Of a stretch of DNA of 36,169 bases, positions 11,803 to 35,541 are shown one piece after another. The stretch covers positions 1 through 36,169 of the forward strand of contig CAKJZE010000050.1 in NCBI GenBank assembly GCA_918285425.1, given 5' to 3'. Both the position numbers and the translations under genes were made by a program. The stretch's first letter is position 1. Every line of letters starts with the position of its first letter. Under the pieces are notes generated by a model. It saw only the letters and a list, made by a program, of their open reading frames with translations, was not told where the DNA came from and did not search any database. The stretch comes from Clostridiales bacterium. GTDB lineage: Bacteria > Bacillota > Clostridia > Christensenellales > UBA1242.

Positions 11803-11879
11803 GCACCCGTATCTCAGCTGGATAGAGTCCACGGCTACGAACCGTGTTGTCGGGGGTTCGAATCCCTCCGGGTGCACCA
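11803..11879 (+). tRNA. tRNA-Arg (ACG), CCA encoded
   Basis: Acceptor GCACCCG/CGGGTGC, anticodon arm CACGG-CTACGAA-CCGTG, T-arm GGGGG-TTCGAAT-CCCTC, ACCA end. Confidence 0.95.
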
Positions 11880-11940
11880 TAAAAAGTTGACGCATTTTTG
11901 CGTCAATTTTTTATTGCATATTCGGTACGGATTCGAACAA
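11861..11940 (+). repeat. 80-bp direct repeat copy 1 (tRNA-Arg 3' end plus terminator)
   Basis: AATCCCTCCGGGTGCACCATAAAAAGTTGACGCATTTTTGCGTCAATTTTTTATTGCATATTCGGTaCGGATTCGAACAA. Confidence 0.95.
11880..11915 (+). terminator. Terminator of tRNA-Arg
   Basis: TTGACGCAttttTGCGTCAATTTTTTATT. Confidence 0.85.
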
Positions 11941-12054
11941 ACTGGGGTCCACGCAAAATTGCATAAGCGATTTTGTGGGGAGAGGAGCAACCACTCGCAA
12001 AGGCAAAATTTTGATTGTAAATCAAAATGAAGCAAAAAGAGCATGTTGCGACGA

Positions 12055-12134
12055 AATCCCTCCGGGTGCACCATAAAAAGTTGACGCATTTTTGCGTCAA
12101 TTTTTTATTGCATATTCGGTGCGGATTCGAACAA
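12055..12134 (+). repeat. 80-bp direct repeat copy 2 (duplicated tRNA 3' end plus terminator)
   Basis: Same 80 bp as 11861-11940 with one substitution, 194 bp downstream; no intact tRNA precedes it. Confidence 0.95.
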
Positions 12135-12201
12135 TTTTTAAATGTTTTGCATAATGTAAATCTACAAAATCTTTTAATTAAATCATATCTGCATATTTTT
12201 A

Positions 12202-12230
12202 TTGACTTTTATTTTTTGAGGTGTTACAAT
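12202..12230 (+). promoter_or_regulatory. Promoter of the metG-like leader RNA
   Basis: TTGACT (12202-12207) - 17 nt - TACAAT (12225-12230). Confidence 0.7.
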
Positions 12231-12236
12231 AAAGTT

Positions 12237-12350
12237 ATGAGAAATATTAAATTACAGCAACAAAATAGATAATTTTTGTGCAAATCTTTGCACAAGTATT
12301 TTGTTGCTTGTGAAATAATAAGTCACTCGCAACAGAGTGATTTTTATTTT
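12237..12350 (+). ncRNA. Candidate attenuator leader or small RNA upstream of the MetRS-like gene
   Basis: Starts at the predicted +1. Contains an 11-codon ORF (MRNIKLQQQNR), outer stem AGCAACAAAATA/TATTTTGTTGCT, inner stem TTGTGCAAA/TTTGCACAA, then a terminator. Confidence 0.6.
12320..12350 (+). terminator. Intrinsic terminator within the metG-like leader
   Basis: TCACTC-gcaaca-GAGTGA-TTTTTATTTT, about 55 nt before the CDS. Confidence 0.75.
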
Positions 12351-12407
12351 GAAATCACATCACATAAAATTTGAAAGTATGATATGACAAACTTGTAAGG
12401 AGAAATT

Positions 12408-14423
12408 ATGAACAATAAAATTATTGATCTTGTTGGTAAAGAAAGATGGGAAAGACGACCAAACTTCCCTTTAAGAGCGGTTGTTACAAGCGGTATGCCA
12501 TATGGCAATAAAGAAATGCACTTTGCTCATGCTGCGCTGACCCTTAGGGCTGACACTTTTGCACGCTTTATGCGCGACAGAATTGGCAACGAAAATGTTA
12601 TCTTTGTTTCTGGAACAGACTGTTTTGGAAGCACGGCAACTGAAACATACAGAAAACTTAAAGAAAGTGGAAATTGCGCATTTAACAATATAAAACAATT
12701 TGTTGAGCATAATCATAAACTGCAAAAACAAACCATGCAAGATTATGAGATATCTCACAATTTCTTTGGTGCATCTGCTCTTGAGCCTATGTTCTCAAAT
12801 CATAAAAAAGTAAGCGAGTATTTTGTGAAAACTTTGCTTGATGCAAAAATGCTTTCAAAACGTTCTTCTTTGCAATTTTTTGACCCAAAACTGAAAACCT
12901 TACTCAATGGCAGACAGGTTATTGGTAAATGTCCAATAGAGGGCTGCCCTGGTGAAAAGGGTTATGCAGATGAGTGCGACATGGGGCATCAATACTCCCC
13001 TGTCGATTTGATCGATCCTGTAAGCGCATTAAGTGGAGAAAAACCAGAGCTTGTAAAAGTTGAAAATTTATATTTTGACCTTGACAAATGCACTGATGAA
13101 ATGTGGACATGGCTTTCTTCAATCGAAAAACGTGGAGACACTGCTCCATTTATGTTTAAAGAAATCAAAGAGTTTTTGAAAAAACCTGAAATCTATGTTA
13201 AGAGAGAGCTTGTTGCAAAAATTAATTCCCTCGATCTTCCTCCATTTGAAATAGTGGACAAAAATGGGCCAAGCGTAAACCTTGTCTTTGAAAAATTATC
13301 TGACCGTGAGACAGCATGTGAAATTCTGACAGAAAATTTGGTAAGATACCGCACTGGCAAAACTCTTGTTCCTTTCAGACTGACAGGAAATGACAGTTGG
13401 GGTGTTCCTTGCCCTGAAATTGATGGCATAAAAGATCAAACTTTCTATGTATGGCCAGAAAGCCTTTGGGCACCAATAAGTGAAACAATAACTTATCTTA
13501 AATCTGTTGGTAAGCCTGAAGATGAGTGGAAAAAGTTTTGGTGCAGCACTGACGCACGAGTTTTCCAATTTATTGGTGAAGATAACCTTTCTTTCTATGG
13601 CCCAGCACAGCAAGCAATTTGGCTTCACATGCAGGGCACAAATCCTAAATTCCCTGCACCTGATGGTCAACTACAAAACACAACTATTGTTCCAATAAAA
13701 CACCTATTGTTTATGAACAAAAAAGCAAGTTCTTCAGGACAGTTTAAAGCACCAATGGCAAAAGAGTTTTTGAATTACTACACTCCAGAGCAACTCAGAA
13801 TGCACTTTTTAGGAATGAATGTCACAAACAACAACGTAAGTTTTCTGCCAAAACCTCTTAACCCTGACGCAACACCAGAAGAAGTTGATATTGTACTTAA
13901 AGAAGGAAACCTTCTTACTAATGTATATAACAGAATATTAAGAACAGTTTTTTATACAATGCAAAAAGAAATTGGTGGAAAAATACCAAATATTGAAGCA
14001 AGTGATGAAGTTAAAAAAGAATGCGCAAATGCTGTTTTAAACTATGAAAAATTCATGTTTGATTTGAAACTTCACCAAGTTGTTAACACTGTTGATGTAT
14101 TTGTCAGAAATATCAATAAATTCTGGGTTAAAAACTATGCAGAAGCAAGTTCAAAAGAAGAAAAAGAACAGCTTATTGCCAATACCCTGCAATATATTGT
14201 CATAGCAAATATTCTTCTTCATCCAATGTCTCCTAACGGCACTGAAAAAGTCGCAGAATATTTGAAACTTGATAAATCTAAACACTTCTCTTGGAATCAT
14301 ATATTTGATAACATCTATGATATATTAAAAGATAAAAATGACAATCAAATTATATTCTTAAAAGAAAAGGAAGACTTCTTCAAAAAGCACCCAAGTCAAC
14401 TTGCTGCTTTGGAAGAAAAATAG
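12408..14423 (+). CDS. metG: Methionyl-tRNA synthetase family (class I aaRS) protein with divergent signature motifs
   Basis: SGMPYGNKEMHFAHA in place of the HIGH block; zinc-knuckle-like CPIEGCPGEKGYADECDMGHQYSPVDLIDP; FIGEDNLSFYGPAQQAIW; KKASSSGQF in place of KMSKS. Confidence 0.8.
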   Translation: MNNKIIDLVGKERWERRPNFPLRAVVTSGMPYGNKEMHFAHAALTLRADTFARFMRDRIGNENVIFVSGTDCFGSTATETYRKLKESGNCAFNNIKQFVEHNHKLQKQTMQDYEISHNFFGASALEPMFSNHKKVSEYFVKTLLDAKMLSKRSSLQFFDPKLKTLLNGRQVIGKCPIEGCPGEKGYADECDMGHQYSPVDLIDPVSALSGEKPELVKVENLYFDLDKCTDEMWTWLSSIEKRGDTAPFMFKEIKEFLKKPEIYVKRELVAKINSLDLPPFEIVDKNGPSVNLVFEKLSDRETACEILTENLVRYRTGKTLVPFRLTGNDSWGVPCPEIDGIKDQTFYVWPESLWAPISETITYLKSVGKPEDEWKKFWCSTDARVFQFIGEDNLSFYGPAQQAIWLHMQGTNPKFPAPDGQLQNTTIVPIKHLLFMNKKASSSGQFKAPMAKEFLNYYTPEQLRMHFLGMNVTNNNVSFLPKPLNPDATPEEVDIVLKEGNLLTNVYNRILRTVFYTMQKEIGGKIPNIEASDEVKKECANAVLNYEKFMFDLKLHQVVNTVDVFVRNINKFWVKNYAEASSKEEKEQLIANTLQYIVIANILLHPMSPNGTEKVAEYLKLDKSKHFSWNHIFDNIYDILKDKNDNQIIFLKEKEDFFKKHPSQLAALEEK

Positions 14424-34152: not shown

Positions 34153-35541
34153 TTAACCTTGAATACCACCAACGGTTCTTGGGAATATTTCAACATCACG
34201 AATATTTGAAACTCCTGTAAGGTACATTATCATTCTTTCAAAACCAAGGCCATAACCACTGTGAATATTTGTTCCATATCTTCTTGTGTCAACATAGAAC
34301 TTATATTCTTCTTCATTAAGCCCAAGTTCTTTCATTCTTGCACAAAGTTTGTCAAGTCTCTCTTCACGCTGACTTCCACCAATAAGCTCTCCAATCCCTG
34401 GAACAAGAAGGTCAACGGCAGCAACTGTTTTGCCATCATCATTTTGACGCATATAAAATGCCTTGATATCTTTTGGATAGTTCTTCAAAAATACTGGTTT
34501 TTTAAATACTTCTTCAGTAAGGTATCTTTCATGCTCACTTTGAAGATCAATACCCCACTCGACTTTAAACTCAAACTTTTTGCCAGATTTCAGCAAAATG
34601 TCAATGGCATCAGTATAGTCAAGTCTTTCAAATTTATTGTTAATAATGTTGTTCAATCTTTCAATCAAGCCGGTGTCAACAAATTTGTTTAAAAACTCCA
34701 TTTCTGCACTGCACTCTTTCATAACATAAGAGATAACATATTTAACCATCTCTTCTTCGTTATCCATAAGTTCGTTGATGTCACAGAAACACATTTCTGG
34801 TTCCATCATCCAAAACTCTGCAGCGTGCCTTGAAGTGTTGCTGTTTTCAGCCCTGAATGTTGGCCCAAATGTATAAGTTTTTCCAAAAGCGTGAGTAAGT
34901 GGTTCTTCATTAAGTTGACCAGACACAGTCAACGCAACTTTTTTACCAAAAAAGTCTTGGCTGTAATCCACTTGTCCGTCTTTCTTTGGCAATTTGTCCA
35001 AATCAAGAGTTGTAACTTGGAACATTTCACCCGCACCCTCGCAGTCACTTGCAGTGATGATTGGAGTATGAACATACACAAAGTTTCTTTCATTAAAGAA
35101 TTTATGAATTGCAAAAGCCGCAACGCTTCTTATTCTGAACACTGCGTTAAACAAATTGCTTCTTGCACGTATTGATGGGATTGTTCGCAAAAACTCAACA
35201 GTGTGATGTTTCTTTTGCAGTGGATAGTCTGCGTCACTGCTTCCCAAAACTTTTATCTCTGTTGCATTTATTTCATATGGTTGTTGAGCCTGTGGTGTTA
35301 CAACAAGTTTTCCAGTCACAGCAAAACTTGCACCAACAAGCTGAGATGCAACTTCATCATAGTTTGCAACTTTATCACGTTCCAACACAATTTGCACACC
35401 TTTAAAATATCCATCGTTAAGATTGATAAATGCAATATTTTTGCTGTCACGAATGGTACGCGCCCAACCACAAACAGTTATTGTTTTACCATCATAATCT
35501 TTATACGACTTATCAAGATCTTTAATTTCAATGCGTTTCAT
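34153..35541 (-). CDS. asnS: Asparaginyl-tRNA synthetase
   Basis: Class II aaRS motifs: [56 protein letters not shown]. Confidence 0.96.

Follow-up and report, generated by a model that had tools for sequence, protein, structure and literature searches.

A putative glutamine-codon attenuator upstream of the gene for a likely MetRS-derived glutaminyl-tRNA synthetase in Clostridia

The window analyzed here is the whole stretch of 36,169 nucleotides taken from a Clostridiales bacterium (GenBank assembly GCA_918285425.1; contig CAKJZE010000050.1, positions 1 to 36,169, forward strand). Within it, a MetRS-fold protein, here called M, is encoded behind a leader in which a promoter, an 11-codon open reading frame (ORF), a nested hairpin, an intrinsic terminator, and two competing GCAACA pairings were confirmed base by base (Table 1). 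An original prediction made from the sequence alone had placed the promoter, the peptide MRNIKLQQQNR, the hairpins, the terminator, and the GCAACA/TGTTGC pairings, and its coordinates all held.

Table 1. Features of the leader and structural gene (window coordinates)
Feature	Position	Strand	Remarks
Promoter TTGACT-17-TACAAT	12202..12230	+	TTGACT 12202-12207, 17 nt, TACAAT 12225-12230; TG before -10
Leader ORF MRNIKLQQQNR-stop	12237..12272	+	Gln control codons CAG CAA CAA at 12255-12263; QQQ kept in the leaders of orthologues
Region 1, codon strand AGCAACAAAATA	12256..12267	+	Partner is region 2
Inner hairpin TTTGTGCAAATCTTTGCACAAG	12275..12296	+	Directly after stop codon; two-sided changes at 7/9 aligned pairs in relatives
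Region 2 TATTTTGTTGCTTGTGA	12297..12313	+	Alternative partners: region 1 (protector) or region 3 (antiterminator)
Region 3 TCACTCGCAACA, terminator 5′ arm and loop	12323..12334	+	Antiterminator partner of 12302-12313
Intrinsic terminator and T-run	12320..12349	+	Hairpin 12320-12343; covarying in relatives
Shine-Dalgarno-like AAGGAG of structural gene	12397..12402	+	Sequence
M, 671 aa, MetRS fold, proposed MetRS-derived glutaminyl-tRNA synthetase	12408..14423	+	Pfam, phylogenetic profile, pocket, gene swap, AlphaFold/Foldseek

The anatomy of the leader was read directly from the DNA. The outer hairpin arms lie at 12256-12267 and 12297-12308; GCAACA occurs at 12257-12262 and again at 12329-12334, with TGTTGC at 12302-12307. 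The antiterminator is longer than these 6 bp, with GTGA (12310-12313) also pairing with TCAC (12323-12326), and its 3′ strand takes in the 5′ arm of the terminator; the original prediction had missed both points, as well as QQQ being the conserved element. Folding of the 125-nt leader gave -37.6 kcal/mol, against -18.9 ± 3.0 kcal/mol for shuffled sequences (z, -6.2; 0/200 shuffles as low), and both competing helices were more stable than those formed with shuffled partners (P = 0.002 for region 1:2; P = 0.008 for region 2:3, at -12.8 kcal/mol where shuffled partners averaged -5.8). The promoter is sigma-70-like, and its -10 element ends 6 nt before the leader ATG (12237). A spacing of exactly 6 nt was the commonest value among leaders of the same type (18/29), so the mRNAs of leaders with this spacing, the window's included, probably begin at the AUG and are leaderless.

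Leaderless leader ORFs thus appear to be systematic (window positions 12225-12239), and candidate papers on leaderless attenuator peptides in other bacteria exist in the literature. Just upstream of the leader, a direct repeat (11864-11940 and 12058-12134, 194 bp apart) holds the 3′ end of tRNA-Arg(acg) and the hairpin that follows it (TTGACGCA...TGCGTCAA), and reads as an att-like scar. Rfam searches over the whole window at gathering thresholds found nothing but two tRNAs, and neither these nor a permissive search of 11880-12450 matched a T-box or other Rfam element to the leader; without an Rfam match, such an identity was rejected. No significant second copy of the leader was found in the window's own genome.

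Conservation was surveyed in 309 genomes from the window's family of gut bacteria, most of them incomplete MAGs. Leaders were collected from the regions upstream of M orthologues and by covariance-model search, in which matches with E values above about 0.01 were mostly chance. Homologous leaders precede approximately 17 M orthologues and encode peptides of the form MxxxxxQQQ(Q)x-stop (MRNIKLQQQNR, MNSILLQQQQNINF, MKNLVKVQQQR, MVNICKRFQQQI, MKNVKIQQQQR, MSKFFNKVQQQR, MTNIKSQQQY, MKNIKSQQQQY, MSKNLQQQQY, MFNLQKEQQQF, MIKLVKAQQQC, MVINFKEAQQQR, MKTKNQQQQNF, and others), whose sole constant part is the Q run adjoining the stop codon. A Met codon after the start was absent from every leader, and methionine was rejected as the signal for that reason. 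Covariation upstream of orthologous genes, a check named in the original prediction, was run on a 12-sequence alignment and gave two-sided changes at 12 of 21 pairs (0/500 shuffles; sliding controls much lower). The covarying pairs fall in the inner hairpin and the terminator, while the outer helix (region 1:2) is nearly invariant, because it is built of CAA codons. The antiterminator is also conserved in the leaders of M orthologues. For region 2 (TTTTGTTGCTTGTGA), the codons and the 5′ arm and loop of the terminator are equally good partners. In a set of 22 leaders, the duplex of region 2 with its own region 3 averaged -14.3 kcal/mol, against -8.4 kcal/mol with swapped partners (0/2,000 permutations reached the observed sum). 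Conservation, as seen in the two-sided changes at 12 of 21 pairs, is the strongest evidence that the structure of the window leader exceeds chance.

Most M genes, the closest orthologues (67 to 68% identical) included, lack the attenuator. The leader was therefore rejected as a constant companion of M; attenuation is a lineage feature, not an obligatory property of the enzyme family. Upstream of canonical glnS, no Q-leader was found in 21 readable regions (about half of the 40 regions were unreadable by the motif used).

Leaders of the same architecture precede other genes, and their control codons are those of the amino acid that the downstream gene serves. Those before hisS carry His codons (MKTLNILHHHK, MKKIFNLHHHA), those before leuS carry Leu codons (MKNFKTLALL, MKNKYLALLL), Asn-run leaders precede aspS of the aspartate--tRNA(Asn) type and gatA, and Q-run leaders precede glutamine synthetases (type III and a GlnA-type protein). 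One unexplained exception counts against this rule, a Q-run leader (VKLLNLIQQQII) with a terminator before the gene for a YgjV-like inner-membrane protein (L373; G012:C16:1981-2121), for which a glutamine-linked role is possible. Given the match in these siblings, the Gln codons before M predict that M handles glutamine; the match for M itself depends on its assignment as a glutaminyl-tRNA synthetase (GlnRS), which has no biochemical support as yet.

As a separate observation, this nested-hairpin attenuator family (L158, L162, L166, L170, L163, L164, L167, L391, L160, L165, L168, L169, L172, and L379), with its members before hisS, leuS, tRNA(Asn)-type aspS, gatA, and glutamine synthetases, is apparently absent from Rfam.

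By domain content, M matches only Pfam PF09334 (tRNA-synt_1g, MetRS; E value, 1.6e-55), falls below every NCBIfam MetRS equivalog cutoff (200.6 against 587 bits for NF001100), and has neither the PF00749 catalytic nor the PF03950 anticodon domain of canonical GlnRS. A second, canonical MetRS is encoded on contig C22 of the window genome, and a separate canonical MetRS was found in every genome checked. M forms one clade apart from canonical MetRS (97/97). Its AlphaFold model is a confident MetRS fold (pLDDT, 88; pTM, 0.89), for which the best Foldseek matches were solved MetRSs, with the PyrN domain in complex with an analogue of glutamyl-adenylate (9l8v) lower down. The MetRS-like domain of PyrN activates Glu (PMC8664883), so the fold is capable of this.

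In MetRS, Tyr260 and His301 belong to the methionine pocket and Trp461 reads the CAU anticodon. When 27 M proteins were aligned to E. coli MetRS, the pocket residues were lost throughout (His301 to Tyr in 27/27; Tyr260 to Pro in 26/27), Trp461 of the anticodon domain was missing from all 27, and KMSKS had become KASSS in most, with a few variants. Further pocket changes were Ala256 to Ser and Leu13 to Met (26/27). Asp52, Trp253, and the HIGH-type histidines were kept, and the canonical MetRSs of related genomes retain the pocket residues, Trp461, and KMSKS that M has lost. Engineered changes at Leu13, Ala256, Pro257, Tyr260, and His301 alter the specificity of E. coli MetRS (PMC12123629). The loss of methionine and CAU determinants is thus shown; against the GlnRS reading, the M clade retains Asn391 and Arg395, two anticodon-contact residues of MetRS.

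Bacteria are known to reach Gln-tRNA(Gln) by two routes, a GlnRS acquired from eukaryotes, or GluRS with GatCAB (PMC3927822, PMC7373986). Among the 309 family genomes, M was present in 117 and canonical GlnRS (PF03950) in 164, and the two exclude each other (both, 2; M only, 115; GlnRS only, 162; neither, 30; Fisher P = 2.8e-53). The two genomes with both (G075 and G119) speak against strict exclusion, and the 30 with neither are, by our estimate, about the number expected from assembly incompleteness. GatB was independent of M (P = 0.10) and present in about half of the M genomes. It tracks the absence of AsnRS in both the M and the GlnRS groups (29 of 31 genomes without AsnRS have GatB); GatCAB therefore serves Asn in this family and was rejected as the source of Gln-tRNA(Gln) where M is present. 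From 59 M genomes, among them that of the window, both GlnRS and GatB are missing. The GluRS/GlnRS catalytic family (PF00749) was searched in 62 genomes; M-only genomes had at most one match, and the matches read in four of them (G000, G121, G102, and G112) were GluRS. By inference, and without biochemistry on charging, M is the only candidate for making Gln-tRNA(Gln) in those 59 genomes. Counting against this picture, 14 genomes lack GlnRS, M, and GatB, and five of these are ≥94% complete (G139, G091, G072, G248, and G030); these five may reflect gaps in the assemblies or a further route.

Beyond the family, M was found in Ruminococcus, Oscillospiraceae, and Coriobacteriia. In 20 such genomes, one of which (G352) is represented by a contig that belongs to the window's own family, GlnRS was found in 0/20 and GatB was missing in 6, and canonical MetRS was present in 13 of 13 outside-family M genomes tested. 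Two of the six, the Ruminococcus flavefaciens isolates ND2009 and SAb67, carry M and AsnRS, without GlnRS or GatB. The window genome itself has an AsnRS gene (34165-35529, minus strand, over the cutoff), which fits a genome that charges Asn directly and has no GatCAB. Genes for tRNA(Gln) were present in the M genomes examined, where no identity switch (e.g., A73) was seen and G73 was kept. Pair 1-72 of tRNA(Gln) was U1-A72 in all M genomes examined and A1-U72 in 9 of 14 GlnRS genomes, a difference that is probably one of lineage.

Gene-for-gene replacement is shown at one locus. Two sister genomes of one genus (G321 and G322) have flanks that are 92% identical over approximately 4 kb on each side and share the order ileS, X, a shared terminator, and the same following gene, where slot X holds M in one genome and glnS in its sister; the breakpoints come within tens of bases of where the coding sequences end. 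In the largest genus, one and the same sigma-factor gene precedes M in some species and glnS in others, and both states were found within several genera. Genes for tRNA-Met lie near M in several relatives; they also lie beside a canonical glnS (L176) and therefore mark the neighborhood and not M, so they were rejected as a sign of MetRS function.

We propose that 12202-12407 works by ribosome-mediated transcription attenuation, as trp and his leaders do, with the Gln control codons CAG CAA CAA, and that M is the cell's GlnRS, of MetRS fold, in place of the canonical enzyme. When Gln-tRNA(Gln) is plentiful, the 11-codon peptide would be finished and the ribosome would leave, region 1 would pair with region 2, and the terminator would form and stop transcription; untranslated leader RNA would terminate as well. 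When Gln-tRNA(Gln) is short, a ribosome would stall on the Q codons and cover region 1, and the freed region 2 would pair with region 3 (terminator loop and 5′ arm), letting RNA polymerase continue into the gene so that M is made. Should M indeed replace GlnRS, the loop would be ordinary feedback, low charged tRNA(Gln) raising the enzyme that charges tRNA(Gln). That the leader is translated, that ribosomes stall on it, that antitermination occurs in vivo, and that M charges tRNA(Gln) with Gln are all inferences, and the direction of control (starvation leading to read-through and expression) is inferred from the architecture. A slow-terminating ribosome or slow peptide release might possibly antiterminate too, because the Q codons adjoin the stop codon.

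The original prediction had read the leader in the same way, with a ribosome on the QQQNR codons masking the 5′ arm, freeing region 2, and opening the terminator. Two things support that reading: all elements are conserved in relatives, and in sibling leaders the control codons fit the downstream gene. Its doubt that the signal was simple Met starvation also held, the signal pointing to glutamine and M being probably a GlnRS; its alternative of a stand-alone sRNA of about 115 nt is not favored. The stems and the ORF are conserved in relatives, and a promoter-like match downstream of the terminator is weak (9/12). An attenuator combined with a MetRS-derived GlnRS is likely to be the best joint explanation, in the absence of biochemistry.

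Four other readings were weighed. That M is a genuine second MetRS (e.g., of the antibiotic-resistant MetRS2 type) behind a leader answering some other stress is very unlikely: M has the fold and Pfam family of MetRS, and tRNA-Met genes lie nearby in several relatives, but Tyr260, His301, and Trp461 are lost in the whole M clade, the control codons are Gln and not Met, M and GlnRS exclude each other and swap at one locus, a canonical MetRS is present in every genome checked, and tRNA-Met also neighbors canonical glnS. We give as little weight to misacylation, in which M would load tRNA(Gln) with Glu for conversion by GatCAB, as a MetRS-derived analogue of GluRS2. The Glu activity of the related PyrN domain (PMC8664883) and the GatB of roughly half of the M genomes speak for it; against it, GatB is missing from the 59 M genomes noted above, many of them near complete, and from the two isolates, and it follows the absence of AsnRS in M and GlnRS genomes alike.

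It is also highly improbable that M is a tRNA-independent amino acid ligase of specialized metabolism like PyrN or Spb40. MetRS-derived ligases of this kind exist (PMC8664883) and the fold is similar, but no cupin or hydroxylase partner was noticed beside M, which takes the exact place of an essential housekeeping gene and keeps a HIGH-type motif and an anticodon-binding domain. The remaining reading, that M and GlnRS only seem to exclude each other, owing to incomplete MAGs or shared ancestry, and that the leader is a stand-alone sRNA, has in its favor that many of the genomes are MAGs and that a transcript ended by the terminator would be about 115 nt long. It too is very doubtful, since both states occur within several genera, including the sisters with 92% identical flanks, random gene loss in assemblies does not explain 115 against 2, and the genes directly behind the leaders still match them in function.

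With the attenuator and GlnRS reading preferred, a bolder one also seems likely, again without biochemistry: a MetRS lineage changed its amino acid and tRNA specificity, giving a third route to Gln-tRNA(Gln). Its probable scope is small-genome Clostridia, Ruminococcus, and Coriobacteria, with glnS replaced gene for gene, a Gln attenuator in some lineages, and a wider family of His, Leu, Asn, and Gln attenuators. No report of a MetRS-derived or otherwise new GlnRS was found in the open-access full texts searched (open-license papers only, so absence is not proof). If true, this is a case of synthetase specificity changing across subclasses in nature; it explains how cultured R. flavefaciens strains without GlnRS and GatB decode CAA and CAG, it makes database entries named "methionine--tRNA ligase" wrong, and it offers orthogonal tRNA/synthetase work a starting point taken from nature. 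The clue to M came from its attenuator; where a synthetase is misannotated, the control codons of a leader peptide can show its real substrate.

Among known systems, M shares with canonical bacterial GlnRS (subclass Ib; PF00749 and PF03950) its inferred function and its slot in sister species and differs in subclass and ancestry (PF09334, subclass Ia). With MetRS it shares the fold, zinc-knuckle-like cysteines, a HIGH-type motif, and the fold of the anticodon domain, but it lacks the Met pocket and the CAU-reading Trp, has KASSS for KMSKS, and forms a separate clade. The PyrN and Spb40 ligase domains are likewise a MetRS fold put to use with a different amino acid (in PyrN, Glu; PMC8664883; 9l8v), but they serve tRNA-independent specialized metabolism with a cupin partner. 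Class I and class II LysRS are two unrelated types of synthetase for one amino acid that replace each other; M and GlnRS resemble them in this mutual replacement, which for Gln was not known before in the literature searched. T-box riboswitches, the usual switch of aminoacyl-tRNA synthetase genes in Bacillota, also sense uncharged tRNA and antiterminate such genes, whereas sensing in the window leader would be by a translating ribosome. Closest in plan are the trp, his, and pheST-type attenuators of E. coli, which have a run of control codons, three alternative pairings, an intrinsic terminator, and a gene for the same amino acid; the window leader differs in its Gln codons adjoining the stop codon, in the extra hairpin nested between regions 1 and 2, in its probably leaderless mRNA, and in controlling a MetRS-derived enzyme.
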